Assembly (NCBI RefSeq): GCF_003925875.1 | Contig: NZ_AP019309.1 | Span: forward strand, 2,108,001-2,172,000 | Direction of reading: 5' to 3' | DNA: 64,000 nucleotides | Source: Intestinibaculum porci | GTDB lineage: Bacteria; Bacillota_I; Bacilli_A; Erysipelotrichales; Coprobacillaceae | Part shown: positions 11,121 to 35,890 of the stretch, piece by piece | How the letters are laid out: the number at the start of each line of letters is the position of its first letter | Numbering within the stretch: the stretch's first letter is position 1 | The notes under the pieces: model-generated | What the model was told of the DNA's origin: nothing | The model's database searches: none | The model's input: the letters and a program-made list of their open reading frames with translations, nothing else | Program-made: the position numbers and the translations under genes

Positions 11121-11160
11121 TTTACATCACCACTTTTAGTATACTCCAAAAAAACGATGA

Positions 11161-11200
11161 CGTTAAAAAAAGAGGTTAAAAATGATTAACCTCTTTCACA
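11161..11200 (-). terminator. Terminator overlapping the end of the small membrane gene
   Basis: On the minus strand AAAGAGGTTAA and TTAACCTCTTT pair and are followed by T residues. Confidence 0.8.
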
Positions 11201-11478
11201 AACTTCGATAAATAAACACTCACATAGCGAATCAGAAAAACACCGGTGATCGCCGCGACTAAATAAAAAGCGCAGCCCAGGGCGAAAGTCAACTCAGGCA
11301 TGAGTGTATTAAGGCGACTGACAAAAGCCAGAATATATAATATGAACATCAACACTAATAGTGCTATACCAGCCATATAATAACTGGCACGATTGATATC
11401 TGTATGAATATAATGAAGGAATTTATAAATGAATAATGCACCAAAACCGCAAAAGATCAATGTGATAGCGAATGTCAT
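11176..11478 (-). CDS. Small membrane protein of unknown function
   Basis: The protein has 100 residues, with three hydrophobic segments (approximately 1-22, 32-54 and 66-88) and little else. A GAGGAGGG ribosome site precedes the ATG. I do not recognise a family. It is a single gene with its own terminator. Confidence 0.6.
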   Translation of the reverse strand: MTFAITLIFCGFGALFIYKFLHYIHTDINRASYYMAGIALLVLMFILYILAFVSRLNTLMPELTFALGCAFYLVAAITGVFLIRYVSVYLSKFVKEVNHF

Positions 11479-11575
11479 AAGAACCCTCCTCTTACTATTT
11501 GATATTCAAATTATATGAACATATAATAGCATAATTATTAAAGAAATCAAGCCCTTTTGTAATAATGTGAAAATG

Positions 11576-11610
11576 AAAAAATAAGTTAGCCCTACTGAGC
11601 TAACTTATCA
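11576..11610 (-). terminator. Terminator of the copper operon
   Basis: On the minus strand AAGTTAGCTCAG/GGGCTAACTT forms a hairpin followed by ATTTTT. It overlaps the 3' end of csoR. Confidence 0.8.
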
Positions 11611-11855
11611 ATCACTTTGACCATTTCTTCAATTTTTTCTTCGCGGTTTTCTTCATCAACCGCTTCTAAGACGCAGCTGCGCATATGCGCCGCTAAGATT
11701 TCATTATTGGCTTTTTTCAGTAAACCAATCGTCGCCATCAGCTGAGTGGAGATATCAATACAGTAACGGTCATCTTCCATCATTTTCAAAATGCCATCAA
11801 TCTGCCCTCTGGCCGTTTTGAGATAGCGTTCGACTTTTTTATGATCAGCTTTCAT
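11592..11855 (-). CDS. csoR: Copper-sensing repressor, CsoR family
   Basis: This 87-residue all-helical protein of the CsoR/RcnR family has RGQIDGILKMMEDDRYCIDISTQ and HMRSCV. These supply the Cys-x(n)-His-x3-Cys copper(I) site. It represses copper export genes and releases DNA on binding Cu(I). It lies 8 bp downstream of copA in the same operon, and a CsoR-like palindrome overlaps the copA promoter, so the system is probably self-regulated. Confidence 0.93.
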   Translation of the reverse strand: MKADHKKVERYLKTARGQIDGILKMMEDDRYCIDISTQLMATIGLLKKANNEILAAHMRSCVLEAVDEENREEKIEEMVKVIDKLAQ

Positions 11856-11863
11856 ACAATCAC

Positions 11864-19420: not shown

Positions 19421-19537
19421 TATTATTTTATTTCTTATTGTAAAGTCCTTTATTCTAAAAAAAAGCAGAGCTTAGATCATTGAGCTCTGCTTTTCATTTC
19501 ATTTTAGTTCTATTTCATTTCTTATTGTAGATTGACA
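19421..19537. mobile_element. Right-end remnant of an older Tn7-like element
   Basis: Bases 19487-19537 match the true right end (34362-34412) at 48 of 51 positions by eye, including TTTCATTTCTTATTGTAGAT and a terminal ACA. A weaker site lies at 19421-19445, and a strong hairpin AGCAGAGCT/AGCTCTGCT at 19464-19490. The remnant has the orientation of a right end but abuts the left end of the intact element. This is what repeated insertion into one attachment site would leave. Confidence 0.8.
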
Positions 19538-19541
19538 ATTA
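19537..19541. repeat. Target-site duplication AATTA, left copy
   Basis: AATTA lies immediately before the transposon's TGTCAC terminus. The same five bases follow the other terminus at 34413-34417. A 5-bp duplication is the Tn7-family rule. Confidence 0.85.
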
Positions 19542-19547
19542 TGTCAC

Positions 19548-19715
19548 TCTACAATAAGGGATGAAATAAAACTGCCACTTTTCCTTACTTTTGTATTGTT
19601 TCCTACAATAAGGAATAAAATACAATATTAAAGTATTAAATATGCAGTTACAATTCAAATGAAATAGAATTATAAATCAACATGTGTAAATCTACAATAA
19701 AGTTGAAATAGAAAC
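19548..19715. repeat. Left-end array of TnsB-type binding sites
   Basis: Four copies of a site with core CTACAATAAG..ATGAAATAGAAC lie at 19548-19572, 19602-19626, 19649-19670 (weaker) and 19691-19715. Their starts are 54, 47 and 42 bp apart. All face the same way and are reverse complements of the right-end sites, the arrangement known for Tn7 ends. Confidence 0.85.
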
Positions 19716-19739
19716 ATTTTACTAGACCGTATTTCAATA

Positions 19740-20250
19740 ATTTTTCATTTGTTTTTATAGATATCGATCGAACCACCATCTTTATTTTTCCAATATATCC
19801 ATCCACATTCTATTTTCAAAGCTTTCAGATCATGTTTTTCCTATTTTAATTTCCAGGAACAACCGTTGACATCACATAAATAATTCCTTTTGCAATTATT
19901 AATTTTCCTTTCCAAACAGTTCTTCAAGTTTTTCTTCCAGCATCCATTTCGGCATAAGGAAGCGTATTGCACAGTTTAAAGTGTGAGCGATCCATTTTAT
20001 GACCAGCATTAAAGCCGAAGATAAAGTTCATGGCGATTCTGTAAATGATGGAAGTTGGCGCTAATCCGTAAACCTGCTTTGAGAAAATGTGCTGCAGGCG
20101 AGCATTATCATCACGATACTTTTGCTTCATCTTAGTGCTCGTATAAAGCCTTCTGACAATTTCAGCCGGGTACAATCCTGATTTCATATAGAGATCAATG
20201 AACGTCTTTGAATCATCATCAAAACAGCCAGGATAATAGCGAAGACCCAT
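19740..20250 (-). pseudogene. Fragment of an Eco57I-like N6-adenine DNA methylase (copy 1)
   Basis: The readable frame (20250-19924) has GCFDDDSKTFIDLYMKSGLYPAEIVRRLY and HIFSKQVYGLAPTSIIYRIAMNFIFGF. This resembles motif I and the following region of Eco57I-like restriction-system methylases. There is no upstream start and no catalytic NPPY region. A frame change near 19935 would read KWMLEEKLEELFGKEN, and CDVNGCSWKLK appears near 19850, so more protein remnants follow. A second copy of the same piece is at 21582-21914. Confidence 0.65.
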
Positions 20251-20438
20251 CAGCCAGATTTCTCAGACTGTGAGTCTTCGCTAACAATGCGCTCAGTATA
20301 GTGGGAGTTTTATTTACTCCAAAGGCCTATAAGTTTTCGTGGGGAGGTGCAAACCCTACGGTTTGAAAAACCCCAAAAAACTGGATAGCCTATGCTACTT
20401 TAAAGCGCCATTTTTTAACGCTCTTCAATCATATTTCA

Positions 20439-20651
20439 TTAGTGATCATGTTCGTCAAGAAGATAAAAGACATAATCAATTAAGTATATTTGTATGATAC
20501 AAATAATAAGGGCAATCGTCGCTACTATTATAGTATGTTTCGTAAAGCTCATCAAATAGAAGTAAAAAACGATTGTAATCAACATCATAAGTGATTTCAG
20601 ATAGCGATAATGTTCTTGATGATGACATATTATATTCCAGATTTTTTTCAT
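20439..20651 (-). CDS. Small hydrophobic protein, doubtful
   Basis: From ATG 20651 this is 70 residues: MKKIWNIICHHQ, then two hydrophobic segments (approximately 20-40 and 42-62), ending LLDEHDH. A TTG 60 bases upstream would lengthen it, but neither start has a strong ribosome site. It lies in decayed cargo and has no known family. Confidence 0.35.
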   Translation of the reverse strand: MKKIWNIICHHQEHYRYLKSLMMLITIVFYFYLMSFTKHTIIVATIALIICIIQIYLIDYVFYLLDEHDH

Positions 20652-20762
20652 ATCAATTATCTTTTCAATTAATGTGATAAGGGAGTACTTTAATGGCTTA
20701 TGATAATTCAAATGTTTTCAAAAGGTCTCTAGCTAGAGACCTAATTGATTCAACTTAAAAAT

Positions 20763-20954
20763 TCATTTAAAAAAATTTCTGGTAGCCTGACGGTCAGCCT
20801 CCATTCTTGCTTTCGCAATTCTCTCTTCATTCTCTCTTTCTAATTTAACTCGTTCAGGATCATAAGCCGGTTCTGGCTTTTTAGAAAAATGAAGATAAAG
20901 CGCAATTGCAATAAGAGCTACAAGAATGATAATGATAAAAATTAAAATAATCAT
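20763..20954 (-). CDS. Small single-pass membrane protein
   Basis: The protein has 63 residues: a helix from 2 to 22 (MIILIFIIIILVALIAIAL), then a charged tail rich in Arg and Glu (RVKLERENEERIAKARMEADR), possibly a short coiled coil. AAGGAGG precedes the ATG, so translation is likely. No family is recognised. It is cargo of the transposon. Confidence 0.6.
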   Translation of the reverse strand: MIILIFIIIILVALIAIALYLHFSKKPEPAYDPERVKLERENEERIAKARMEADRQATRNFFK

Positions 20955-21041
20955 AAAATCAACCTCCTTAGATTAAAATGATGAATCTAAATCTCTTTCT
21001 ACTTACATTTTAATTAATATTTAAATAAAAAGCAATAAAAT

Positions 21042-21081
21042 GGGTGCGAACGGTCATTTTTGGTTCCTAATGGTCATTTTT
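21042..21081. repeat. IS21-like terminal repeats (left)
   Basis: Two adjacent copies of GGTnCnnAnnGGTCATTTTT (21043-21061 and 21062-21081) form an inverted pair with 22884-22920. Short repeated subterminal units are typical of IS21-family ends. The family is inferred. Confidence 0.45.
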
Positions 21082-21581
21082 AATAAAAAATTAAGAATAT
21101 CTCGCGTTTGCAAAAAATTTAAAATTTAAAATATTAAAGCATCATTTGCACAGTGGTGCTGATTGTTGTAAAATAATTTTACATTTACAAATTAGCGGCT
21201 TTCATCCCACGGCTTAATGACCGAGATCATCAGTTTTCCTTTAACTTAATGACTTTTCTGAAAAAATAGCGACTTTTCAAAAAATCAAAATTACGTCGAT
21301 ATAACCATCATTATTTGAAAAGTACATCACCTAAAATAATGTACTTTTCGTACTTTGAACTTTATTTTTATACGATAAAATCAACGTTATTTTCATTTCA
21401 TGCATTTTCACAAGAACTTATCAAAGTGTTTGTGAAACGCCCAGAAAAGGAAATTTATCATTAAAATTTTGATTTCTGGTGCAAATTCAAAATCCACAAA
21501 CGATTTCAGTACATATAAAGGAAAACTAAGCCATCATCAAAAGCGATGATATTTAAGCTGAACGCCTGTGAGCACAGCATA
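21082..21581. other. Gene-free stretch within the cargo
   Basis: About 500 bp of AT-rich sequence. I see no supported gene, RNA or promoter. It is probably degenerated cargo. Confidence 0.4.
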
Positions 21582-21914
21582 TCATTCAGTTTGTTTATAC
21601 CAGAAGCCATTATAGACCGGTGAACGATCCATTTCATGACTAGTATCGAAGCCGAAGATAAAGTTCATGGCAATCCTGTAAATAATCGAAGTTGGTGCCA
21701 GCCCATAAACCTGTTTAGAAAAGATATGCTGAAGACGCTCACTGTCATCAGGATACTTCTGCTTCATCTTAGGACTCGCATAAAGCCTTCTGACAATCTC
21801 AGCCGGGTACAGTCCTGATTTCATGTAAAGATCAATGAACGTTTTGCTATCGTCATCAAAGCATCCCGGATTTTCCTTTTCCAGCAGATCACACATTTCT
21901 CTTACGACGTTCAC
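21582..21914 (-). pseudogene. Fragment of an Eco57I-like N6-adenine DNA methylase (copy 2)
   Basis: This contains the same block as copy 1 (NPGCFDDDSKTFIDLYMKSG to IIYRIAMNFIFGFD), at roughly 85% nucleotide similarity by eye, with a different N-terminal lead (MNVVREMCDLLEKE). It ends in unrelated residues after DRSPVYNG. Neither copy has NPPY. The pair looks like two independent truncated remains of related methylase genes. Confidence 0.6.
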
Positions 21915-21983
21915 ATGCGTAGCCTGCGGAAAAAAACCTCAGCCTTCGACTTTGTTCTTTTTGCCTGCTCATCAGCTGATTTC

Positions 21984-22388
21984 TTAAATCTGGGATGGAT
22001 AATACATCTGCCACCTTTCATAAATCGCTTTATCCAATCCTTTTAAGGCCTCGAAGGTTCTCCGAATCAGGTGTTCACGACACTGCGTTAATACCTGAAC
22101 TGTGACATCATCAGGAATCAGATGTTCCTCAATTAATAATCGTAAGAAATCATATTCAATCTGACTGGCACTTGGAAAACCAACTTCAATTTCTTTGAAG
22201 CCTAAGTCTACCAAAGTCTGAAACATCTCTACCTTTTCTTCGATCTTCATTGGTGTGACAAGAGCCTGGTTCCCATCACGTAAATCGACTGAGCACCAGA
22301 TTGGCGCTTTCTCGATATGTTTGTCTGGCCAGGTACGATCTGGCAGACTGATGGTTTCAAATCTCTTGTACTTCTGATAATTCATCAT
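21984..22388 (-). pseudogene. leuA: 2-isopropylmalate synthase, N-terminal fragment
   Basis: The first approximately 120 residues are clearly Leu[38 protein letters not shown] (metal-binding Asp and the RDGNQ loop) and [14 protein letters not shown]. The frame ends abruptly after [14 protein letters not shown], where the full enzyme continues for more than 400 residues. The start, an AAGGAGA ribosome site and the T-box leader are intact, so truncation is at the 3' side only. The fragment cannot be an active synthase. Confidence 0.9.
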
Positions 22389-22414
22389 TTCTCTTTGTTC
22401 TCCTTTCCAACCTT

Positions 22415-22690
22415 ATAAAAAATCTCTCGTCTCTACTACATATACTATAGCAAGAGGACGAGAGATATGCTTCGTGGTTCCACCTCAGTTTATTGACACC
22501 TCACGATGCCAACCTTATCGAGTACGCTTTCGAAAAAGTTATACTCTAGCGTGATAACGGTCGCAAGTTCCGTAGCTACCTACTGCAATTTCAGTGCTCC
22601 ACTCCGGGATGAGTTCAAAACGTCGTCAGCATGTCCTTCGCTTTTACTACTTCCCTTCAATGTATTTGTCTCATCGGTTGTTGACATTGC
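22415..22690 (-). ncRNA. T-box leader of the truncated leuA
   Basis: On the minus strand the T-box core GAGGTGGAACCACGAAGC (22471-22488) is followed by the terminator ATCTCTCGTC/GACGAGAGAT plus TTTTTT (22467-22416). The specifier stem lies in the upstream part (to about 22690). T-boxes read uncharged tRNA, here expected to be tRNA-Leu from the gene it precedes. I did not resolve the specifier codon. Confidence 0.85.
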
Positions 22691-22883
22691 TATATACTTT
22701 TACTTTAAAGCTGTCAATAAATCCAAGCCATTTTTTATACTTTTCTAAACATTGTATACTTTCTGTCGTATTATCCGATCTGACTAACGCTTTCTTTTTA
22801 GACTCTTGCCATATTCCTATTATACTCCTCTTTATTGGGCTTTCATAATATTTCATACAATTTAAAAAAAAATCAATAAATCG

Positions 22884-22920
22884 TGACCGTTGGGCACCAA
22901 AAATGACCGTTGGGCACCAA
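22884..22920. repeat. IS21-like terminal repeats (right)
   Basis: TGACCGTTGGGCACCAA occurs twice (22884-22900 and 22904-22920), inverted relative to the pair at 21042-21081. No istA or istB remains between them. Confidence 0.5.
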
Positions 22921-23032
22921 TTTATTGTAAATTGAAATAAAATCAATTATACTTTAAGTAGATTAAGGTAATTATTGAGTGCTTAAACAAGGTTTATATT
23001 TTGATTATTTATTAAAGAAAGAAGGGAACTCT

Positions 23033-23302
23033 ATGTCTCAGAAAAAAAGCTACTACGATCCTAAGCGGACCAAAGAGTTAACGAAGGCCGGGCAATCCAT
23101 GGGTGTTGCCATGACTTACCTTGGTTTAATTGTGGTTGGTGCTTTAATTGTGATTGATACCTATTATTATTTAACAAATCATCAGAAAGAAAGTTATTCA
23201 CCAAGTTTCATGTTAGGAATGGGCTTGATCACTTTACTTGTTTTAATAGCTGTTATCATTGATATCTTTATGAGAGTAAAAAGAAAGAAAGGAAAAAAAT
23301 AA
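23033..23302 (+). CDS. Small two-helix membrane protein
   Basis: The protein has 89 residues from ATG 23033 after GAAGGGA. A polar N-terminus (SQKKSYYDPKRTKELTKAG) is followed by two helices (approximately 22-42 and 58-80) and a Lys-rich tail. The stop is one base from the next gene's start, so they form a two-gene unit in the transposon cargo. I recognise no family. Confidence 0.65.
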   Translation: MSQKKSYYDPKRTKELTKAGQSMGVAMTYLGLIVVGALIVIDTYYYLTNHQKESYSPSFMLGMGLITLLVLIAVIIDIFMRVKRKKGKK

Positions 23303-23303
23303 T

Positions 23304-23849
23304 ATGTTTAAAAAAGTTACTGTTATTTTACTGTGCAGCACGCTGCTTTTATGTTTATCGATTACAAAATCTTCTGCCAAAGAAAATAGTGTTTTATTAA
23401 AAGCTTATAACAATAATTTATCAAATATCAGTTCAATTGATTTGCATCCAGAATATTGTCAAGTTGTTTATGATTCTAGATATGACCAAAATCCTAAAAT
23501 TCCAAGACGGGCAAGACCAACAAGTTATTCTTATTTTAAAACCTATCGGGCAAATATTATTTGTAAAGGGACTTCTTATCCTGTCAACTCATACGCTTTA
23601 AATGCCAGTATTGATTTCTATGTAAACGTATATTTTAAATTAGATAAATCTAATAAATCACATTGCAATGGATACGATAAGCCTGTTATTACAAGTTGCT
23701 CTGGATCATATGGAGCAACAGGTTATTCTCATCCATCTGTATCAGTTTCATCATACACTGATACCTATATGAACTTTAAAGGGAAATGTATCTTAACTGT
23801 TGCTGGCATTGACTATACTATGTCTGGAACTAAAAAAATGTCATTATAA
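23304..23849 (+). CDS. Secreted Cys-containing protein of unknown function
   Basis: The protein has 181 residues with a clear signal peptide (MFKKVTVILLCSTLLLCLSI, cleavage near SSA-KE). The mature part is Tyr/Ser-rich with five Cys, possibly disulfide-bonded, and alternating beta-like stretches (YRANIICKGTSYPV, YMNFKGKCILTV). It is co-directional with and adjacent to the membrane protein before it. No family is recognised; it could be a secreted effector or surface protein carried as cargo. Confidence 0.65.
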   Translation: MFKKVTVILLCSTLLLCLSITKSSAKENSVLLKAYNNNLSNISSIDLHPEYCQVVYDSRYDQNPKIPRRARPTSYSYFKTYRANIICKGTSYPVNSYALNASIDFYVNVYFKLDKSNKSHCNGYDKPVITSCSGSYGATGYSHPSVSVSSYTDTYMNFKGKCILTVAGIDYTMSGTKKMSL

Positions 23850-24029
23850 TTATTATAACTCATAAGCACTCTGTTCTGATTTACCTTTTAATCGCATTTA
23901 AAGATGATCATCTTTATCATATCACAACGATATATGTTAAAAGGGGCTGTAACATTAAGAAATAACTATCACAATGATAAAAAGTGAAGTTTGATGATCA
24001 AAACGTTATAACAGTCCTGATTATATCAA

Positions 24030-24067
24030 AAAAGGGAACTGAATTATGAATTCAGCTCCCTTTTTTG
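24030..24067. terminator. Bidirectional terminator in cargo
   Basis: GGGAACTGAATT/AATTCAGCTCCC (one mismatch) is flanked by A and T runs. Confidence 0.75.
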
Positions 24068-24139
24068 GTGTATAATATTTATATGATCAGTTATTCAAAA
24101 AATACACAAACATATGGTATCACAAATCAGCTTTCTTTT

Positions 24140-24388
24140 CTATCTGATGTTTGTATTTCTTTCGATAACGACATTGATGAATTTGATGTTTGCCGTACAG
24201 TTAAGAGCATAACAGAAAATACGATCTTTGGTGATTTCATCGGTATCTTTATAGCCTAAAGAGGCATAGACATCAGTTGCGAAGATAATATTTCGCTCCA
24301 TGGTCATATCCTTCAAAAGAATATTTAATACTGACTTGTTCATATTTTTTAAATTTAATTCAAATTCTTCTGCTGTACTGATATCCAT
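24140..24388 (-). pseudogene. N-terminal fragment of a DNA methylase-type gene
   Basis: The start is intact (GGAGG before ATG 24388). The first approximately 55 residues, MDISTAEEFELNLKNMNK to ATDVYASLGYKDTDEITKDRI, resemble the N-terminus of the same Eco57I-like methylases whose central pieces lie at 19924-20250 and 21582-21914. The remaining residues look like out-of-frame noise. It is probably the 5' stump of a deleted restriction-modification gene. Confidence 0.5.
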
Positions 24389-24615
24389 TTTTAACCTCCG
24401 TAGTAATTTTATTATAACATGATTGATTAACTATTGTGATTTGTTTCTTATGTCATTGAATATTTTATCATATGTTCTTATCGTTTCTTGCCTTGTGGAT
24501 AAATATATTTACTTCGGCATTTCATAATGAAATATTTTAAGATAAAATGATACATAGCTATTGTGATTAAAAGAGACAGGAGTTTATGTTCCTGCCCTTT
24601 TGTTATAAATAAGTC

Positions 24616-25341
24616 TCATTTTCCAAAAATATCATCAACTAATTTTTTACGCTTATTCATTTGTTTTTCTTTCTCAATTTTATTCATAATTTCATCGTTA
24701 ATAATAGATTCTGCTAATGCTTTATAATCAATGATTTGATTAAGCTCAATGGCAAACCGCTTTGTTGCAATCAAATGCTTCATTGCGGTTATATTATCGA
24801 TAACACTATCAGGATCATAGTATCTGGTTACAAGTCTGATATTATCTGTTATTCTTCGATCAATGTTATCACTGTATGCCATACGAAACTTAATTCCATG
24901 ATTTTCCCAGTAGACCTTTTCAATGCAGGTATTATTAAACTTTCTTTTGTTCTCTAGTGCTTTCTTATTAGGCTTTACCGAGATTGCTTCCTTATGTCCA
25001 TCACTATATGTAACAAGGAAATCCGTTGACATAATATAATTTGGATTTTTTGAATAGCCAACTCCAAGCAGTGAGGCGATATAGTCTGTTTCATTTTTAT
25101 CTAATGGATACTGCTCATTAATATCAACCACATCGTCATTGAAGCGAAGCCATAACCATACCCTGTATTCTCCCTGAGAAAGCAAATCAACGGTTCTTCC
25201 AGTTTTCCAGTCAACCGCCTGAACTCTTGTGCCAGCACCATTAGGGTGTTCATTTGCATGTTCCCATGCTGAATAGTCTTTACCGTTGCCGCGGCCATAA
25301 CCTTTAGAAATTTTCGTTGCTTTACTAGGTTTTCGTGCCAT
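24616..25341 (-). CDS. tnsA: Tn7-like transposase subunit TnsA
   Basis: This 241-residue restriction-like endonuclease is the partner of TnsB that cuts the 5' ends of the transposon, allowing cut-and-paste movement. The catalytic triad is visible as Glu58 (LLSQGEYRVWL), Asp107 (YIMSTDFLVTY) and Lys123 (AISVKP). The C-terminal part (IDYKALAESIINDEI and a Lys-rich end) is likely the TnsC-binding tail. It is the last gene of the operon, 2 bp after tniQ/tnsD. That placement is unusual, since tnsA usually comes first. Confidence 0.93.
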   Translation of the reverse strand: MARKPSKATKISKGYGRGNGKDYSAWEHANEHPNGAGTRVQAVDWKTGRTVDLLSQGEYRVWLWLRFNDDVVDINEQYPLDKNETDYIASLLGVGYSKNPNYIMSTDFLVTYSDGHKEAISVKPNKKALENKRKFNNTCIEKVYWENHGIKFRMAYSDNIDRRITDNIRLVTRYYDPDSVIDNITAMKHLIATKRFAIELNQIIDYKALAESIINDEIMNKIEKEKQMNKRKKLVDDIFGK

Positions 25342-25343
25342 AT

Positions 25344-27887
25344 CTACTCCTCCTTGACATCTTCAGTACTATGAAAAACACCTTTGCTTACTCTATAAAG
25401 ATATCCTTTTCGTACAAGCCGAGATAAAATTGAACTCAACTGATTCTTTGGTTTATCCAGAAACTCAAAATCCTTGAGCGTATAATCACGGACAATGTCT
25501 TTATTTATTACGTCCATAACAGTGTCTTCCATTGTTTTCTCACGGATTCTATCCTTACCGGTATACATATAAACACCTGTTTTAATTCTCTTCGCCAATC
25601 CTTTCTGTGGAAATTTTTTTAAGGCATCGGTTATCTGTTGCCTTGTTAAATCAGGAATATTAATATCTGATGCAGTGAATTCACCTTCACTTAAGTTTTC
25701 TTTTACATATTCAAGAACCTGATCTGGAACAGTAACAAAATCTTTACCAGCCCCTGTAACATACGTACCCATAGCCACGCGGTGAATGCGTTTAAGATGA
25801 TCAAGACTTACTAACGCGGTTCCAATTTGTGAAACAGAATATCCAGTCAAATCAGAAAGCTCAGAAATTGTGTAAGAATCATTTCTATCTTTCACAAGAA
25901 TCCATAATAAATCTCGTATTTCAAATGTTTTTTCTGGCATTATTCTCTTTTTGTCAAAATCAGGATCATTTACATCATGATAAACACCTTCACTAACTCT
26001 GTATAGCTCACCACGACGCTGTAGAAAAGAGAGTTTCATATTAAGATCGTATATAGAATAATTTTCATTTGATAGACTTTCGGCAGTATAGTCAGCACTC
26101 GGGTTTTCTGCAATGGTATTTCGAATATATGGAAGAATTCCTATTGGCACATCTTTCACCTTTTTTCTAACATCATCAGGAAGCGGTAAAACTTTTGATT
26201 GTGTTGGTCGACGCAGCTCAGATAGTATAAGCAGTTTACTTACATTTTCCAGTACTACTTTTCCATCACTATTAAATACATCAAAACTGTTTTTGGCTTC
26301 TTTTGAACGAACATGATATAGATTTTTTGAAGCTTCAAGGACAAATTCAGGAAATTCATCTCCATAAGGGTTCTTTTCACACGGACAGCGGCGACCAACC
26401 AGGAAGTCTCTAGCAGGCATAACAATTATTTTTTTACACTTATTACATCTGATTTTAACATTTTCCTGACCTGAAGTGCTAATCCCTGTCAGAACAGTAT
26501 AATCATCTCCTGTGAGATCAGCGACTGCTTTTTTATATTCGTCAGTGTTATTAATAGTTAAATCAAGAATAGCAACTGAGAAACCAATGCTTCTGCAGTA
26601 GGAACAATATGGGCTTCTTTGAAAATTAGACATTGTTTTAAAGAAAATATGTCCACACTTAGTATGTTTTATCTTCAATACCGTTGTTGATCTACTAGTG
26701 GTTTTTTCAGCGGAAAGCAGTTTGAAATCGTTCTGTTCAACAAGACTTTTCATTTCACTTAAAGTTGGACCCTTTTCACATTCGCATACACGTTCTTCCA
26801 GCATGTATTTTGCGCGAATGTGATGTATTAATCCACACTTATGTTTCACTTCAATAAACTTTTGCGGTCCTAAATATTCAGAGCAAATCTTGTAATCAGG
26901 ATTAACATTTTCAGCAACCTCAATGAACTTTTCTTCATCATTTCTCGCATTTTCACAATGAGGACATTGCCAGCCAGCATTAAAACCATATTCAGTTGCG
27001 AGGAATCGTTCACCACAGTTATGCTGAACCACTGAAAATAATCCATAACTTTTTAAAACTTCATAATCTTTGCTTACATTTAAATGACATTTTTCAGATT
27101 CAAACCGATTTCGTATATTTGAAACCGTAGATAAGACAAATTCAAACAAAAGAATATTTAAAGGAGCAGTTGTCCCGGTACTACTTTTAAAGATTACTCT
27201 ATTAAGAATTTTTTCAGCAGGGCCTGTCAGCATTCCATCAGGGATAGTATGCTCAATCAAAGAGATACAATCTTTTTTATTTACAAATTTTGTTTCAATT
27301 ATTTCTCTAAGATAAAATGTAATATCCTGAAAATTACAATGTAAATCTGTTTTCAGCAACTCATGGCAGAAATTTGCAAAGTTTAGTTCAAAATCTGAAG
27401 CTCTTGTAACATGCATATCTTCTGTACCATAAGCAACCAGTTTAACACCATGTTTCCAGCATGCTGTTACACCAGGTGCCTGGTGACTTCTCCTAAATAA
27501 AGGCCTATTATAAGTAGTTAAATCTTCTTTTAGGCAAATAGGGCAAATGTTTGTGCCATTGTAATGATTTCTAATCAAAGGTATCATCTTAGGAAACTTA
27601 TGTCTTTTTCTTTCAAATCCATTAATCCACATTGTTTGTGTTATGTCATTAAATAATGGAGCAATTAACGGAAATAATGTATGCTTCATGAGAATCTCAT
27701 CTGCTGGCAATGGGAATTCTATTTTATTCAAAATAGTCATCGTTTCATGTTTTATCAGATCATAGCTTCCAGCTACATCAAGATACTTTGACAGGTGCTG
27801 ATAATTTGTTCCATTAGCTTCTGCTAATCTGCTCATAAATGAATAAAATGTTTCATCTTCAACAGGTGATATAAAAGTCATGATCAT
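25344..27887 (-). CDS. tnsD: TniQ/TnsD target-selection protein with zinc and winged-helix arrays
   Basis: The protein has 847 residues. The N-terminal TniQ domain has FISPVEDETFYSFMSRLAE and a zinc site C115-C118-C143-H146 (ICPICLKED, HQAPGVTACWKH). Four more Cys-rich modules follow, at approximately 291-311, 351-370, 411-431 and 481-503. Residues 580-847 hold four similar segments of about 60 residues, each ending in a hydrophobic winged-helix-like wing (RVSEGVYHD, RVAMGTYVT, RIKTGVYMY, RVSKGVFHS). TnsD proteins bind a specific chromosomal site and recruit TnsC. The long DNA-binding tail fits recognition of an attachment gene. It overlaps tnsC by 4 bp. Confidence 0.9.
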   Translation of the reverse strand: MIMTFISPVEDETFYSFMSRLAEANGTNYQHLSKYLDVAGSYDLIKHETMTILNKIEFPLPADEILMKHTLFPLIAPLFNDITQTMWINGFERKRHKFPKMIPLIRNHYNGTNICPICLKEDLTTYNRPLFRRSHQAPGVTACWKHGVKLVAYGTEDMHVTRASDFELNFANFCHELLKTDLHCNFQDITFYLREIIETKFVNKKDCISLIEHTIPDGMLTGPAEKILNRVIFKSSTGTTAPLNILLFEFVLSTVSNIRNRFESEKCHLNVSKDYEVLKSYGLFSVVQHNCGERFLATEYGFNAGWQCPHCENARNDEEKFIEVAENVNPDYKICSEYLGPQKFIEVKHKCGLIHHIRAKYMLEERVCECEKGPTLSEMKSLVEQNDFKLLSAEKTTSRSTTVLKIKHTKCGHIFFKTMSNFQRSPYCSYCRSIGFSVAILDLTINNTDEYKKAVADLTGDDYTVLTGISTSGQENVKIRCNKCKKIIVMPARDFLVGRRCPCEKNPYGDEFPEFVLEASKNLYHVRSKEAKNSFDVFNSDGKVVLENVSKLLILSELRRPTQSKVLPLPDDVRKKVKDVPIGILPYIRNTIAENPSADYTAESLSNENYSIYDLNMKLSFLQRRGELYRVSEGVYHDVNDPDFDKKRIMPEKTFEIRDLLWILVKDRNDSYTISELSDLTGYSVSQIGTALVSLDHLKRIHRVAMGTYVTGAGKDFVTVPDQVLEYVKENLSEGEFTASDINIPDLTRQQITDALKKFPQKGLAKRIKTGVYMYTGKDRIREKTMEDTVMDVINKDIVRDYTLKDFEFLDKPKNQLSSILSRLVRKGYLYRVSKGVFHSTEDVKEE

Positions 27888-29437
27888 TTAAAAATCACTT
27901 CCTCACTATTTATTTCTTCAATAAGCGAATGAACGTTATTTTGAGATGTTGCCATATGAATCTTCTGCATTTCACTAATAGCCTTCAAAGTTTCTCTTAC
28001 TGCAGCGCTATCAGATGTAAATTTTCCTCCAGAAAGTTTTAATGCTCTTGTAAAAGAATTAAATATAGCCTTTTTGGAAACTTCGGGATAAAGTTCAAGG
28101 ATCTTTTCCTCAACATAAGCCTGTGTTCTTGCCACATCAACAATTTCTCCCACATCGTTGCCTGCATGACCTCTTTCGGAAATTGCAGCAATCATCTGGT
28201 TAACAGCCTTTTTCATGCTTATAGATTCTTTTTTATAATCATAGCAATCAATTGATAATTTCAATAAGTCCATTGACCGATTGCTACATTTTTTTATAAA
28301 ATCAGCTGTGATTTCAGTTGGCTTTAACATATACTGCGTCTGAATGTATGCCCATAAAATCATCAGCATATTTATTATTCCATGCGTTTCTTCGTACATT
28401 GCATCAATGATTTTAGCAGATGGATTTACGGGATTTGTAAAATAGCGATAATTCCAAAGTCTTCTTAGAATAAACTCAAATGCCCTTTTATTTTCCACAT
28501 ATACTTCTGAATTTATATTATGGGCAAAACGTCTGGCATTATGAGGATCATCAAAAAGTCTAAGAAAAGCTTCTCTGGTTCCAATTGCCACAAGAGCTAC
28601 CGATGTTTCATTAGCTAACACCAGAAAATTGCTAATGCTATAACCGCGCTTAGTTGTCTTTAAACTTAACATTTGAATTTCGTCCAGTATCAATGCTCCA
28701 ACATGAAATACATTAATATAGTTCTTAATCAGCCGTTCTTTATCTCCTAGTTTCTTTGCCTTAAAAACCTCGTTTTCATAATAAGGAGTTAAATTCCTCA
28801 ATGCACGGTCAATTGCTTCACCAATAGCCTCATACACACTTCCAATGTTATAATCAGGATGAATGTTAACAATCAGATAAGGTATCTGAACAAACTGATC
28901 AACCGTTCCCATATTATGAATAATTGTCTGCGGATAAAGATCAAGCACTGCATTAACTGATGTAGATTTTCCTGATCCTCCTATGCCTGTTATTGAAATT
29001 CCTTCAACGGGTTCTGACATATTTGTTGGAATTAACTTTTGATTTTGTTCAATCACACCATCACCTGTATGCACTTTTATGTTAGACTGGCTGCTGTGCA
29101 TAGTTTCCCGTTTAAGATAACTTTCTCGAATAGCCTTATGGAAGTGGTATTCAAACTTGCTATCCATTGGCAACTCTGTTCTAAAATCTAGTAAGCATTC
29201 AAGTGAATCAAGCTTCTGCTGCAAACTCATTTCATCAAGATTTTCAGGAAGAATAACACCATGATTAAAGGTAGCCTTTCTTCCTTCTTCATTAAGAAGC
29301 GGGGGAAGAGCCTCAATAAGAGGATTCCCTTTTGCTTTTCCTTCACATTGAATATATTCTGCTGAAACAATTGAATAACCAGATGTCTCTTGAAATGCAT
29401 ACTGCATCTCAGGTGTCGTATATTTTCTTTCTTCCAT
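27884..29437 (-). CDS. tnsC: Tn7-like AAA+ regulator TnsC
   Basis: This 517-residue AAA+ ATPase has Walker A GIGGSGKST (approximately 151-159), Walker B VGALILDEIQML and sensor segment VALVAIGT, then a C-terminal helical region. TnsC links the target-site protein to the TnsAB transposase and enforces target immunity. It lies between tnsB and tniQ/tnsD and overlaps the latter by 4 bp, so they are translationally coupled. Confidence 0.93.
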   Translation of the reverse strand: MEERKYTTPEMQYAFQETSGYSIVSAEYIQCEGKAKGNPLIEALPPLLNEEGRKATFNHGVILPENLDEMSLQQKLDSLECLLDFRTELPMDSKFEYHFHKAIRESYLKRETMHSSQSNIKVHTGDGVIEQNQKLIPTNMSEPVEGISITGIGGSGKSTSVNAVLDLYPQTIIHNMGTVDQFVQIPYLIVNIHPDYNIGSVYEAIGEAIDRALRNLTPYYENEVFKAKKLGDKERLIKNYINVFHVGALILDEIQMLSLKTTKRGYSISNFLVLANETSVALVAIGTREAFLRLFDDPHNARRFAHNINSEVYVENKRAFEFILRRLWNYRYFTNPVNPSAKIIDAMYEETHGIINMLMILWAYIQTQYMLKPTEITADFIKKCSNRSMDLLKLSIDCYDYKKESISMKKAVNQMIAAISERGHAGNDVGEIVDVARTQAYVEEKILELYPEVSKKAIFNSFTRALKLSGGKFTSDSAAVRETLKAISEMQKIHMATSQNNVHSLIEEINSEEVIFK

Positions 29438-29452
29438 ATATTTACACCTCTC

Positions 29453-30212
29453 TTAAAGATCTTCCATATATTTCATATAATCATCGTCAAATGACGTACT
29501 GTCATCAGCATCATCTAATGTTGGACCTTTATCAATAAACGTATTTTCATCAGATACTGTATTTTCATCTAAAGGCTTGTTTAAGTCATTTGAATTTGTT
29601 TTTTCATTACCATCATAATTGCTGTCAGCAGCAATATTCTTCTGACCAAGTTTCTTTTGTTCAATAAGCTTTTCTTTTTCTCTGGCTGTTTTGATATGCT
29701 TCGTATCATTTTCTTTGCCAGAATGTTCACGTTTTGCATCCAGAATAGTTTTCTCATGTTTTTGATAAAATTCAGATTTCTGGTTACGCTTTTCCTGAAG
29801 TGCTTCTCTCTTTTGTACAGCCATTTTCTTTCGATAAGCTTCCGCTTCCGCGACAGACATATTAATGAATGATGCCTGACTCTTAAGATCAGGATTAAGC
29901 CATGCACGAGACCATACGCCATCAAGAAAGTAATAAATATAATTAACTGTAGCTGGGTTAATAGCGACTTCAATTTTTTCTCTTTCATTAAGAAAACACA
30001 TTTCTTCAAGTTTTCGGTTTCTTAAATCAATATATTTCATCGTATCAACAAGAATACCATAGCGAGTAATTGAAGCTTTTTTATGTTTGTAAAGAGCAAT
30101 ACGAAATGCATCGAAATCTTCAATTTGTCTTGGATGCTGCCCTTTATTTTCTACACAGTGACGCCAGGTATCGCAAGGGGTTTGTTTAATTCCATAGTCA
30201 ATCATATCCTTT
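29453..30212 (-). pseudogene. tnsB: TnsB, C-terminal part (disrupted)
   Basis: These 250 residues from MIDYGIKQT continue TnsB after an IS4-family insertion. They carry the C-terminal beta-barrel (VNYIYYFLDGVWSRAWLNPDL), a long charged coiled coil and an acidic tail ending DDDYMKYMEDL, probably the TnsC-binding tail. Joined with 32036-33410 using one copy of TATCCTTT, the frame reads IPYTKD-MIDYGIK without interruption, giving 708 residues. If expressed separately the two halves would split the protein after the catalytic core. Confidence 0.9.
30205..30212. repeat. 8-bp target duplication of the IS4-family element (left)
   Basis: TATCCTTT here is repeated at 32036-32043. Confidence 0.9.
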
Positions 30213-32035
30213 TTTGAGTTCCGGTATTTTAATGTTGATTTTCAACCTCAAAATAATTTCGTGCTATATAATTTATGTATATGTGGCCCTAAACCATTAA
30301 TTTAGGATATTGCCAAGCTAACTTGTTAATTTTGCGTACTTAAAAACTTTACTGCTTTTTTAGCACCTTTTAAGCTACGTATTTGCTGTTTTCCTAAAGA
30401 AACTCCCAAATTTCAAGCTGCCTGCTAGGTTTTCGTTTCTCTATACGCTTAAAGCGTTGAATTCCCTTTTGGGCATATGCTAGGGCTTCCTTTATCCCCC
30501 TAGTGATCTGATAGATCCATACGCACACATCAGCTCTAAGCGATTTACTTCTTTCAATCATTTTTATCGCCAGGAGGCTTTCATCAACCTTGTTTGCCAT
30601 TAGCGCTACATGCCCGACTCTGATCATAAGCATGAGGTTCAGCACATTCATTTTTTTAAGCGTTCTTACACGCATATTTTCCCAATCATATTCAGACTTA
30701 GTGTGTCGGAAATTTTCCTCAATTCGCCAGCGATAAAAATATTCTCTAACTATTGTTATTACATCCTTCTTATCATTAACATGTCTGTTTGTGATGAGTA
30801 AAAGTGGTTCTTCTTCTGATAGTCCGTAGCAGAAAATTATTGTATATGCCTTTTTGCTGCCTTCAATGCATGGGAGTCCCACTCTTGTATGGGACAGCTT
30901 AACTTCCTTGTTTTCACTTTCAAAGAACAGCGTCATATTAACCTTTCCTTTTCGATCTTCCGCCATTTTTGAAACCAAAACCTCATGACCCTTAACGATT
31001 ACATTTCTATTACCCTTAAGTCTAATGACAAAGTCATCATCCGGGTGTTCTGCAAAATATTTAAAGAAGGTATTTGAATCATATCCTCTATCAAAAATGC
31101 CTGAAATAGGATGCTTAAGTATGGTTTTCATTGCGTCAAGTGATTTAATCGTTTCATCAGGCATAGACTTATGTCCATTAGAATCAGTAGAATAGATGTA
31201 GCTATATAATGGTATCGGCTGTTTATTGTTTGAAGAGAGCGCCACCGCCTCACAAACATGATATCCATTAACTAGTGTTGTCTTGGGCTGACTTGCATCT
31301 CTTACACGGCAAAGGTCCTCGAACTTTTTGCCATATGGCTTAGCGATTTCACTGTCATCAAACAGAACAACAACCTTGTCATCCTTATCGATAAAGACAT
31401 TTTCTCTAACGATGGCGTAGTAGTTGTTTTTGATCGTTTCAATTTCGTCTTCTTCTATGTTTTCCATATTATCGCAAAGTCTTTCGGATGTGTTTTTTAA
31501 CTTAATGCTTTCATCAAGAGCTCTAGCTATTTCGGTAGTAAGCACAGAAGTTTTCTTGGCTATTCCATACTGCATATCGAGCACGAAGTTGCTCGTAGCC
31601 TTTTTTAAATTTTTTGATATTTTGGAACTGAATATGGTGATTTCTCTTTTTATCTCGTATACGTCTGTAGTATAATAACTCATAGGGGAAGTCTCCTTTT
31701 TATTATGTTTACTTACTCAACTTTATTATAAATGAAAAGTGAGATTTCCCGCAATAATTCAAAAGAAATTGGAAAAATTGCCCACTGTCTTGTGGTGTCT
31801 ATCATTCCAATTTTTTTAGCCTTTGTGGACAGAACGACTAAAACTAGGGCGTGAAGTCCAGCCTTTTGTGAATATCTTATAGAAACAGTCAAAAATCACC
31901 GCCGAGAAGATTCATGGCGGTGAATAACTTTTAAAAATGCAGTTTTTTCAATTAAAAATTGTGAATAAGTTTTTTCGAATATTTCTGTTCGAATCTGATT
32001 ATATTTTATATTTCTTTTGAATACCGGAACTCAAA
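30213..32035 (-). mobile_element. IS4-family insertion sequence in tnsB, 1,823 bp
   Basis: Both ends begin TTTGAGTTCCGGTATT (16 bp perfect inverted repeat, 30213-30228 and the complement at 32020-32035). The element is bounded by the 8-bp duplication TATCCTTT. It carries one transposase gene and a noncoding 350-bp segment with a TCACCGCC/GGCGGTGA hairpin near 31896. The duplication copies are identical, which suggests the insertion is recent. Confidence 0.92.
30394..31683 (-). CDS. IS4-family transposase
   Basis: This 429-residue DDE transposase has the first Asp in VVLFDDSEIA, the second in GIFDRGYDS, and the YREK-type signature YFYRWRIEENFRHTKSEYDWE with the catalytic Glu, which defines the IS4 family. 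It moves its own element by cutting at the inverted repeats. It appears full length and is likely active. Confidence 0.92.
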   Translation of the reverse strand: MSYYTTDVYEIKREITIFSSKISKNLKKATSNFVLDMQYGIAKKTSVLTTEIARALDESIKLKNTSERLCDNMENIEEDEIETIKNNYYAIVRENVFIDKDDKVVVLFDDSEIAKPYGKKFEDLCRVRDASQPKTTLVNGYHVCEAVALSSNNKQPIPLYSYIYSTDSNGHKSMPDETIKSLDAMKTILKHPISGIFDRGYDSNTFFKYFAEHPDDDFVIRLKGNRNVIVKGHEVLVSKMAEDRKGKVNMTLFFESENKEVKLSHTRVGLPCIEGSKKAYTIIFCYGLSEEEPLLLITNRHVNDKKDVITIVREYFYRWRIEENFRHTKSEYDWENMRVRTLKKMNVLNLMLMIRVGHVALMANKVDESLLAIKMIERSKSLRADVCVWIYQITRGIKEALAYAQKGIQRFKRIEKRKPSRQLEIWEFL

Positions 32036-32043
32036 TATCCTTT
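32036..32043. repeat. 8-bp target duplication of the IS4-family element (right)
   Basis: TATCCTTT, identical to 30205-30212. Confidence 0.9.
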
Positions 32044-33410
32044 GTATAAGGAATTCCTTCACAAATGGTTGTGTTGTGAAAATAAACGAAATCTTCAGCC
32101 ATAATTCTGAACTGATCAATTGTTAATACAGCTTTCTTGTGATGATCGGAATCGTGGCGCTTCTTAATAAGTCCGGCTTTATGCATCATTGGATCGATCA
32201 TCTTTTCAAAAGTTCCAAAAGAACGTTCAACGATCGGTTTCAGAGAAGCTACACCTGCTGGTGAAAAACAAAAATTAATTCCTAATGCTCTAGCACATCT
32301 TCTTGCTTCCTTAGATACAAAATCTGAACCATTATCAGTCATCACTCTTTCAGGAAGAATTCCATATGGAATTGCATATTTAGGAGCATTGGGATGTCTC
32401 ATAAGCAGCTCACTCTTTGGATCAATTAAGCACTCATATACTCTATTCATTGCAATGACTGCGTTATTATCAAAAGATGCCGTAAATCCAACAATCATTC
32501 TTGTTTCTCTATCAATCATGTAATAGATAATAGGGCGTCCTACAACGAGATGATAATCATTATTAGAAACAAGTGATACATCAACCTCATGGGCGTCAAT
32601 TTCAACTAAATCCATCGGTCCATAAACACCCTCATTGACATCACCTTTCAGAAGTCGCTTATTATTTCTCATTTCTAACATTGATGTCTTCTTTGCCTCC
32701 AGCTGCTCGGGCGTAGCATAAGTATTAATAAAGTATGAGAATTGTCTCATAGATGGATATGTGCCCGGCTCTCCGAGATTTCCATTGCTGTCACGATATT
32801 CATCCTGAAGCTTAATATAACAGTATTCAAGCGTATACTCTTTACTAGTTGCAGTTAAATATTTATTCATCCACTTTCTCATGCGAGTATTATCTTCTTC
32901 ATTTCTATGGAAGGCTGAATCACCATTTTCAAGCTTTCTCCCACCACCTGAACCCCTTCTTTGTGACTTAGAAAAATAACTCTTATCATATAATGAATAA
33001 TCTTTCTTCCCGCTCTTAAGATAGTTTCCCAATACCCTCCAAAAAGTAGGTGCTGACATTCCACACTCATTGATAATCTTGTTAATAATTCGGCTTGATG
33101 ATCTTGTCTTAATTTCAAGATAATCTGGACCGAATATTTGTTCCATCATGTTCATTGCTTTTTTACGCTTTTCAAATTTTTCTTTTGCCTCTTTCGAAAA
33201 ATTTATATTATTCAAATCAATTACATTTTCATCAAAAATGTAAAAATCATTAGATTTAATGCTCTTAATAATATTAGAATAGAGCAATTGGCTAATATTT
33301 AGACTAGCTTTAGTAAGATCAACAACAGTTACTCTGTTTTGAGATACATTAATAACTCTCCAGTCTTCGTTTTTACCTCTTAAGCGTATACCTTTTCTAA
33401 TTTCGATCAT
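32036..33410 (-). pseudogene. tnsB: TnsB, N-terminal part with catalytic core (disrupted)
   Basis: This contains N-terminal DNA-binding helices (MSAPTFWRVLGNYLKSGKKDY) and a retroviral-integrase-type core with all three acidic residues: Asp272 (VEIDAHEVD), Asp359 (VMTDNGSDF) and Glu395 (KPIVERSFGTFEKM). TnsB cuts the 3' ends and joins them to target DNA. The frame runs into the IS4 element after IPYTKD and stops at 32031. The remaining 250 residues are at 29453-30212. Divergent to an XRE regulator. Confidence 0.93.
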
Positions 33411-33527
33411 GTAAATTCTCCTCTCACTAGTATTAAGGTAGATTTTTATACAATTTACGCGTAGTTTTCTTTTATATTTAGGTAGTTTACTTCTTGTTAT
33501 GTTCTAAAAAAAAATAACTCATGTATG

Positions 33528-33543
33528 ATCCTTATATAAGGAT
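33528..33543. promoter_or_regulatory. Perfect 16-bp palindrome, possible operator
   Basis: ATCCTTATATAAGGAT is a perfect inverted repeat. It lies 11 bp ahead of the XRE regulator's ATG and in the shared region upstream of tnsB, a natural site for autoregulation. Function is inferred. Confidence 0.55.
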
Positions 33544-33554
33544 AGGTGGATTTA

Positions 33555-33878
33555 ATGGATAACTTTAGTAATAATGATCTAGTAGCTCATTTCGGTGAAA
33601 ACGTTAGACGCATACGTAAACAAATTGGAATGACACAAGAACAGCTTGCCAAAAAATGCGGATACAGTCTAAAAGCGATTGGGGATATTGAACTTTGTAA
33701 ATCAGATCCAAAACTTTCAACGGCTGCAAACATAGCAGACGCATTAAACATAAACATCGCACAGCTATTAGATAATCGTGTTGCTATTATTGACGATTTA
33801 AATAATTTAGGTTCGGCCAAAGTGGCAGATTATATTTCTGATTTGCGATTAATTACAAAATACCGCAAAAAGATATGA
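33555..33878 (+). CDS. XRE-family transcriptional regulator
   Basis: The protein has 107 residues. The helix-turn-helix is FGENVRRIRKQIGMTQEQLAKKCGYSLKAIGDIE at approximately 12-46 and is followed by LSTAANIADALNINIAQLL, a standard Cro/C1-type domain. ATG 33555 follows AGGTGG. An in-frame GTG at 33546 is too close to the ribosome site. Divergent from tnsB, it is likely to control the transposition operon through the palindrome next to it. Confidence 0.88.
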   Translation: MDNFSNNDLVAHFGENVRRIRKQIGMTQEQLAKKCGYSLKAIGDIELCKSDPKLSTAANIADALNINIAQLLDNRVAIIDDLNNLGSAKVADYISDLRLITKYRKKI

Positions 33879-33982
33879 TTTTTTCTAATAGTAGTATAAT
33901 CGTTTTATGTAGATTTATCAACATTTTTCAACACGGCTTATTATAAAAAAATATCCATAGCCAATTATAGCTATGGATTCCA

Positions 33983-34168
33983 TCAGTCATTATCATCTTT
34001 TAACATATCTTTCATACGTTCATATTTGGTCATGTACTCCTTCAAGGCTTTTTCCACTATGAACGTTTTTGTTTGTCCAGAATAGGTACTGAAATCATTT
34101 AAATCATCATATATTTGCTTATCAATTTTTAAGTTCAGATTCACACCGTCTTTTCTCGGTCTAGGCAC
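33983..34168 (-). CDS. Ribbon-helix-helix protein (CopG-like)
   Basis: This 61-residue protein has NLNLKIDKQIYDDLNDFSTYSGQTKTFIVEKALKEYM, a typical ribbon-helix-helix DNA-binding fold or antitoxin. It starts with GTG at 34168 after GAGGTGAT. An overlapping ATG is out of frame. It sits between the XRE regulator and the right end and has no visible toxin partner. It is probably a second regulator of the element. Confidence 0.75.
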   Translation of the reverse strand: MPRPRKDGVNLNLKIDKQIYDDLNDFSTYSGQTKTFIVEKALKEYMTKYERMKDMLKDDND

Positions 34169-34274
34169 ATTATCACCTCTCAGTTCATTCTACATAAATT
34201 ATATCATACAACTAATAAAAAGCAGAGATGTGTACATCTATTGCTTAAAAAGTTTTAAATTAGACTGTTTTTAA

Positions 34275-34407
34275 TCTTTCATTTCATTTCTTATTGTAGA
34301 TCTAAAAATCATGATTTTAGTCTTTCATTTCAAGCTTATTGTAGATGATTTTTCACAAATTCTGCTTTTTATTTCATTTTGGTTCTATTTCATTTCTTAT
34401 TGTAGAT
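34275..34407. repeat. Right-end array of TnsB-type binding sites
   Basis: Three sites share the core TTTCATTTCTTATTGTAGAT: 34275-34301, 34320-34346 (core altered to TTCAAGCTTATTG) and 34381-34407. The last is followed by TTACA, the terminus. All face the same way and are inverted relative to the left-end sites. A hairpin AAAGCAGAGATGT/ACATCT lies just inside them at 34217-34246. Confidence 0.85.
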
Positions 34408-34412
34408 TTACA

Positions 34413-34417
34413 AATTA
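34413..34417. repeat. Target-site duplication AATTA, right copy
   Basis: The five bases after the terminal ACA match 19537-19541. Bases 34415-34417 are also the TAA stop of the L,D-transpeptidase gene. Confidence 0.85.
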
Positions 34418-35890
34418 ATAATGCATGAAGACCATTTCACCATATTTAGTGATTGAGTACATCTTGGCAGCTGAACCCATAGAAAGGTTGATGCAGCCAT
34501 GTGAACCTCTTGATTTATAGTATGATGGAGACCATGAACCCCATGACTGCCATGGTGCAGCGTGGAAGCCCGTACCAGTCCATGTAATACGTACCCAGTA
34601 TTTCACTGGTGTCTGATAGTTTTCACCAATTAAAGTACGATTCATCTGATGTTCTTTAATGAAGAATGCACCAGTCGTTGTTTTACGTCCAGGAACAGGT
34701 TTACCTGAGATACAAGGTGTGCTATAAGCAACTTTACCGTTTCTAAAGACATAAACCATCTGAGCGCCTAAATCGACTTCGGTATAGTTTTTCTGATCCC
34801 AGTCATCTTTGAAGTTATTCCAGTTAATCTTGTAAGTTGATTTAGAATACCAAGGGATGTCATATTTTAAAGTGACAGCTTTGATATTATCTTCAGACTG
34901 ATCTTTGACATAAGCATCTGTGCTATCCTGTGGAATAGCTTTATTCATTGCCTGACGAGCCTGTGCGATGGCTTTGGCATAATCAACACGCCAGCCATAG
35001 TCACCTTCAGTGGTTGATAACTTTTTACCAGTATGGGAAGTATAAGTACGTTTCTGACCGACAGTCTTATATTTTAAACACAGTTTTTCCACATAAGCCT
35101 GAAGCTTTTCATCATTAACAGCGACTTTGCCATTAGCCCAGTAAAGCATTTTCGCAATGTCATCAGGAGTCATTGTTTCAGTATGACCTTCCGCAATGGT
35201 CCAAGTAATATAACGTAAGCCTTTGTTGTTATAAGCAGCTAAACGGTTTTGTAATTCAGAGCGAGACGCCGTTTCTTTCGCTGTTTTATAACATGAATTG
35301 TATTTAGAAGTAGAAATATCTAAAGTCTTAGAAACTGATTTAAAAGATTTCACAACGGCTTTTGTCAAACCGTCAGTGTCAATGGTATTCCCCGGTTCTG
35401 CATCATTGACCTGATAAGACTTCTTGCTTGTTGAATAAGCAATATAAACAGGACGAGGTGCTCTGACCTTGTATGTCTTACTGCCTTTTACAAGTTCAGA
35501 TTTCTTAATCACATTCGCTAACTTAGAGGCATTGTAAGTGACATCATGCACTAAGGAATATGAATAAGATTTAAATGGAAAAGAAATACCTTTGTGCGCA
35601 TCACTGAAGGCATTTTCGATTTTCTTGCTGACAGTTGCTTTATAGTTAATGTCATCGCCATCAATGGTCATTGTGCCATTATTACGTCCCTTAATAGTGA
35701 GCGTATAACCATCTAATGACTTTTGAATTTTATCTTTTGACTGCTGTAAAGTTAACCCCGATACATCGATCCCGTTAATAGTGGTATTGTTATACCAACG
35801 ATCTTTGTTCGCAATGTTGTAGTAAGCAATAATACCCACAAGAATGGCCACCAGAACAGCTAATCCGATGTATAAATATTTTCTTTTCAT
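34415..35890 (-). CDS. L,D-transpeptidase (YkuD) with peptidoglycan-binding region; transposon attachment gene
   Basis: This 491-residue protein has an N-terminal membrane helix (YLYIGLAVLVAILVGIIAYYNIA), a long extracellular region with VanW/PG-binding-like repeats (NTTINGIDVSGLTLQQSKDKI) and a C-terminal YkuD domain. The YkuD active site is SRGSHGCINLS (His464, Cys466). It crosslinks peptidoglycan through 3-3 bonds. A Tn7-like element is inserted exactly at its stop codon, leaving the protein complete, but any native terminator is now 14.9 kb away. The conserved 3' coding end is the likely recognition site for TnsD. Confidence 0.93.
   Translation of the reverse strand: MKRKYLYIGLAVLVAILVGIIAYYNIANKDRWYNNTTINGIDVSGLTLQQSKDKIQKSLDGYTLTIKGRNNGTMTIDGDDINYKATVSKKIENAFSDAHKGISFPFKSYSYSLVHDVTYNASKLANVIKKSELVKGSKTYKVRAPRPVYIAYSTSKKSYQVNDAEPGNTIDTDGLTKAVVKSFKSVSKTLDISTSKYNSCYKTAKETASRSELQNRLAAYNNKGLRYITWTIAEGHTETMTPDDIAKMLYWANGKVAVNDEKLQAYVEKLCLKYKTVGQKRTYTSHTGKKLSTTEGDYGWRVDYAKAIAQARQAMNKAIPQDSTDAYVKDQSEDNIKAVTLKYDIPWYSKSTYKINWNNFKDDWDQKNYTEVDLGAQMVYVFRNGKVAYSTPCISGKPVPGRKTTTGAFFIKEHQMNRTLIGENYQTPVKYWVRITWTGTGFHAAPWQSWGSWSPSYYKSRGSHGCINLSMGSAAKMYSITKYGEMVFMHY

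Follow-up and report, generated by a model that had tools for sequence, protein, structure and literature searches.

A Tn7-like element at the stop codon of an L,D-transpeptidase gene in Intestinibaculum porci

The element and its target gene

The window analyzed here is a 64,000-nucleotide stretch of Intestinibaculum porci DNA (positions 2108001-2172000 of a one-contig genome of 3.21 Mb), and all coordinates without another source refer to it. It contains a gene for an L,D-transpeptidase (ldt; 34415-35890, minus strand; 491 aa, YkuD domain at 70.5 bits) whose 3' end adjoins a Tn7-like element of 14,871 bp (19542-34412). The element is bracketed by a target duplication, AATTA, with its left copy at 19537-19541 and its right copy at 34413-34417 (p ~0.0013 for a chance match of the 5-base flanking repeat). 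The left copy directly precedes TGTCACTCTACAATAAGG, with which the left end of the element (19542-19714, plus strand) begins; the right end (34277-34412, minus strand) reads inward as TGTAAATCTACAATAAG and on the forward strand closes with CTTATTGTAGATTTACA at 34412. The two ends are inverted repeats at 26/31 bases, a value equaled by none of 200,000 shuffles. Each carries three copies of one related 24-nt TnsB-type site (19548-19571, 19602-19625 and 19691-19714 on the left; 34383-34406, 34322-34345 and 34277-34300 on the right), pointing in opposite directions at the two ends. TGT..ACA termini, several such sites and a 5-bp duplication make up the arrangement of a Tn7-type element. A whole-genome motif search placed the exact end-site motif at this locus only within the 3.2 Mb genome, and the motif was absent from the viral contigs searched.

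The stop codon of ldt, TAA, lies at 34415-34417, and the right AATTA holds its complement, TTA. The initial annotation had proposed that the right copy contains this codon and leaves the protein unaltered, and both the coordinates and the C-terminus bear this out: the terminal ..FMHY* is identical in the ldt of RUG246 (70% identity), a genome labeled uncultured Erysipelotrichaceae and the only genus-mate among the genomes compared, and in a relative from another genus (49%). MHY* is likewise the ending in relatives that lack an insertion at this position, so the ldt product is unchanged by the element. The accompanying claim, that a Tn7-like element borders the ldt 3' end and thus has a target different from glmS, is supported as well. 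An empty site was found in another genus (L045), in which ldt is followed at once by its terminator with no element, and in which aspartokinase, a small membrane protein, ldt, a phosphatase and leuS occur in the same order as in the window. Judged from this synteny, the L045 arrangement is the ancestral, empty state of the ldt site.

The transposition genes all lie on the minus strand, in the order tnsB, tnsC, tnsD, tnsA from the right end. The endonuclease gene tnsA (24616-25341) matches PF08722 (2.5e-14) and Tn7 TnsA structures (4e-20), and the AAA+ ATPase gene tnsC (27884-29437) matches PF13401, PF05621 and Tn7 TnsC structures (1e-12). Between them is the selector gene, tnsD/tniQ (25344-27887). 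The tnsB gene is in two pieces, an N-terminal part with the DDE core (32031-33410, minus strand; Tn7 TnsB 7pik, 2.6e-20) and a severed C-terminal part (29453-30205, minus strand), the former aligning ahead of the latter on the intact TnsB of a related element elsewhere in the genome (L012). What separates them is an IS4-type insertion sequence (30213-32035, minus strand) with 16-bp inverted repeats and an 8-bp duplication, TATCCTTT, at 30205-30212 and 32036-32043; because it breaks tnsB, this copy of the element is probably now immobile. Collectively, these genes encode a TnsA endonuclease with a DDE transposase TnsB (now interrupted), an AAA+ TnsC and a TniQ-family selector, the set that marks a Tn7-like element.

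An Xre-type (HTH_3) regulator is encoded near the right end (33546-33878, plus strand), and the product of a 61-aa ORF (33983-34168, minus strand) is by eye a possible ribbon-helix-helix protein. The element also includes a truncated 2-isopropylmalate synthase-like fragment with an HMGL-like domain (21984-22669), together with a T-box leader (22451-22669) that scores 79 bits, below its gathering score. Two similar ORFs of 108-110 aa (19924-20250 and 21582-21914) are possibly fragments of one gene family; neither matches PADLOC, and the first is without a Pfam match. Elsewhere in the genome, near 1.64 Mb (L013), a third Tn7-like set comprises a short TniQ, TnsA, a split TnsB and TnsC and adjoins a type I restriction-like gene cluster.

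Repeated use of the ldt site

To the left of the left AATTA lies a relic right end, termed R1 (19421-19537, minus strand), and not plain chromosome, which corrects the initial annotation. R1 retains two sites (19508-19531 and 19421-19444) and a hairpin (19461-19494) carrying a T run; over its first 47 bases it matches the present right end at 44, in the same orientation. Its last base doubles as the initial A of the left AATTA: the present element inserted into the target repeat of R1 and came to lie between the relic and ldt. Since R1 stops 4-5 bp short of the element's left end, within the duplication that it had itself generated, it stood at the ldt stop before the present element arrived, the second insertion falling 1 bp away. 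Neither a second full copy nor a matching left end for R1 was found in the genome.

A third right end is present in the sister species RUG246. There, ldt is followed by TGTGAATTTACAATTTAAAAGTATATAAG, a diverged right end that sits where R1 does, all three right ends agreeing in position within 1 bp. Its layout is like that of the right end in the window: a terminal TGT, TACAAT and then two A-rich boxes. It matches at 30/47 bases, a score reached at none of the 31,856 further positions scored on two contigs of RUG246 and at none of 3,645 AT-rich positions. No other copies of this relic end were found in RUG246. The tnsBCDA element on RUG246 contig C200 was considered as its source and rejected, the end sites there looking different by eye. 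A transposase gene (L014, 5448-6461) lies ~200 bp away from this relic and is related at 67% identity to one at 53353-54426 in the window. RUG246 contig C171 (L077) has a second ldt-like gene (9638-11002). Between it and the next gene is a stretch of ~0.9 kb (in the region 10950-12050) with some ten sequences like the TnsB-type sites of the window, all in one direction; these are perhaps stacked relic ends.

It could be argued that a single random insertion happened to land beside ldt and that the end-like sequence in RUG246 is coincidental, given that just one full element is found at ldt and that the RUG246 assembly is fragmented. R1, however, is a second insertion in the same genome within 1 bp, and the RUG246 end outscores every other position tested while occupying exactly the expected place behind ldt, so that chance is a very improbable account. 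Three right ends in one orientation at the ldt stop amount to orientation-specific insertion at a fixed chromosomal site, and the comparison of these ends shows repeated same-orientation insertions at one position in two species. R1 and the RUG246 end have no tns genes attached (none within the 6.7 kb remaining on the RUG246 contig), and ten ldt relatives outside the genus have no such end by eye. Taken together, the element, R1 and the RUG246 end support ldt as a recurrent attachment site, which so far appears as a genus-level habit; the initial annotation is correct on this central claim.

The selector TnsD and its relatives at nrdD

TnsD is 847 aa long, with a TniQ domain (residues 5-150; PF06527, 66.6 bits), CxC/CxxC repeats (~275-503) and four winged helices (581-843). 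A profile built from four TnsD relatives matches Tn7 TnsD at 7.2e-9. The stretch with the cysteine-pair repeats (286-547) resembles part of phage proteins, one of which is annotated as an HNH endonuclease. Each of the four tandem repeats at 581-843 was recovered by leave-one-out profiles, two of them weakly (E 0.066 and 0.012), and the last is also hit by winged-helix profiles of the AbiEi type. Winged helices are predicted for the first and the last, the two repeats for which the model of the C-terminal region is reliable; no match of that model to the PDB passed E 0.001, and many of its weak fold matches are winged-helix proteins. A model of the whole protein was unusable (pLDDT 54.6).

TnsD is probably the protein that reads ldt, and the CxC/CxxC repeats and four winged helices would do the reading, with binding expected within the last ~120 bp of the gene. 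Faure et al. have proposed that target recognition resides in C-terminal TnsD extensions of this kind (PMC10293859). The initial annotation pointed to the codons for SHGCINLS, ~65-90 bp from the insertion point, as contacts; this is a guess, and in Tn7, by contrast, TnsD uses a 36-bp site at the glmS end, with insertion ~20 bp past the gene (PMC2918618). Within the ldt end, DNA conservation peaks 70-180 bp before the stop and the last 12 bases form another conserved stretch, so that neither region is preferable as the contact.

Guide RNAs direct some Tn7-like elements to chromosomal genes (PMC11406308), and on that precedent a CRISPR-associated transposon carrying an ldt-directed guide was weighed. 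The element has no tandem array and no Rfam match at the gathering threshold, and judged from the ORF list it has no cas-like ORF, which sets it apart from CRISPR-associated transposons. The longest match to the ldt end inside it is 11 bases, and no guide or repeat matching ldt was found. Moreover, its TnsD is long, a trait linked to direct target reading by Faure et al. (PMC10293859). RNA guidance is accordingly the least likely of the alternatives to reading by TnsD.

A second element with the same TnsD was not found in GTDB contigs, viral contigs, plasmids, wider class and phylum samples, or the family and order genomes. More distant relatives (~23-28% identity) are rare: the 43 family genomes yielded, beyond the window copy, a second one in I. 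porci and one in RUG246; one further relative was present among 316 order genomes, and scanning GTDB contigs with a profile brought in a Merdibacter record and two Gemmiger records. Five elements with a related TnsD lie at the 3' end of nrdD: one at 513 kb in the I. porci genome, one in Lactimicrobium, one in genome G099 and two in Gemmiger, the identity of the neighboring gene as NrdD having been checked for two of the five. The nearest TnsDs are thus found mostly at nrdD: this selector family habitually homes to a single conserved gene end, ldt being a different choice.

The nrdD elements have in common with the ldt element the TnsD superfamily, at the ~23-28% identity given above, and those at 513 kb and in Lactimicrobium massiliense also have the order B-C-D-A. 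They differ in the selector itself. By eye, the TnsDs of the 513-kb, Lactimicrobium and G099 elements have a common C-terminal region that is missing from the TnsD of the ldt element, and they have at most one recognizable winged helix where the ldt element has four; the same repeat profiles found at most one confident copy in nrdD-type TnsD proteins. In Gemmiger, the orientation of the elements relative to nrdD is reversed. The two ends of the 513-kb element could not be paired with one duplication. At that locus (near 510-519 kb; L011/L012), two left-end-like sequences are separated by 1.6 kb, and the right end of the element, whose TGTATAC is inside the gene, may supply the nrdD terminus (..VYKGN*). 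In the RUG246 element on C200 (L015), the tnsBCDA set ends ~300 bp before a tRNA-Thr gene (7189-7264), and its site may be the tRNA gene.

Insertions at ldt and nrdD alike fall at gene 3' ends beside terminators, the duplications are AT-rich, and R1 has a hairpin with a T run. A feature common to gene ends, such as a terminator, AT-rich DNA or transcription, might on these grounds have picked the site through TnsC or TnsB, with no reading of ldt by TnsD. This would not readily account for insertions at one gene that agree in position (within 1 bp) and in orientation between two species, for the confinement of the exact end motif to one locus of the genome, or for the repeated choice of nrdD by related elements among thousands of gene ends, and we consider it improbable, though less so than chance or RNA guidance.

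Proposed mechanism and comparison with known systems

We consider it very probable that this is a Tn7-like cut-and-paste transposon for which the 3' end of ldt is the chromosomal homing site, selected via TnsD. TnsB, with TnsA, would recognize and cut the element ends, and TnsC would link them to the selector. The TniQ-family TnsD would bind within the coding sequence close to the ldt 3' end and fix insertion at the stop codon with the right end towards ldt; the 5-bp duplication would restore the TAA, so the host would keep the enzyme.

A broader proposal is more doubtful than not: ldt genes could be a recurrent site for several Tn7-like lineages in the clade, read by a modular TnsD (homing-endonuclease-like CxC/CxxC repeats and multiplied winged helices), and exchange of its C-terminal array would have moved the family between nrdD and ldt. 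The second ldt-like gene of RUG246, with its end-like sites, may be another such attachment site. Protein-guided homing of the Tn7-like kind offers a way to insert DNA at a chosen target with no guide RNA. The selectors described here bear on how new targets are gained by TnsD proteins: they are sisters with a common core but differing C-termini, directed to nrdD or to ldt, and one has four repeated winged helices. The ldt site also adds a cell-wall gene to the safe sites of mobile elements in Erysipelotrichaceae.

The closest well-described system is Tn7 of Escherichia coli (TnsABCD, attTn7 at glmS), whose proteins are matched by all four proteins of the ldt element. Both have TGT..ACA ends, arrays of TnsB-type sites and a 5-bp duplication, and both insert in one orientation at the 3' end of a conserved gene that is left unharmed. 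Tn7 TnsD binds a 36-bp site at the glmS end, and insertion follows ~20 bp past the gene (PMC2918618), whereas the ldt element has ldt and not glmS as its target and is inserted on the stop codon itself. It further differs from Tn7 in its order B-C-D-A from the right end, with no tnsE identified, and in its 847-aa TnsD, which carries four winged helices behind the CxC/CxxC repeats. Other Tn7-like attachment genes include tRNA genes, parE, comM and yhiN, with CRISPR-associated transposons at guaC, yciA, ffs and rsmJ (PMC11406308). Those elements likewise rely on a TniQ-family protein or a guide to reach one fixed gene of the chromosome, but ldt is not among the genes listed there and the ldt element is without CRISPR parts. 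No open-access paper was found that describes ldt or nrdD as a Tn7-type site, subscription journals and supplementary tables lying outside that search. The machinery is of a known kind; the ldt target and the layout of the selector look new.
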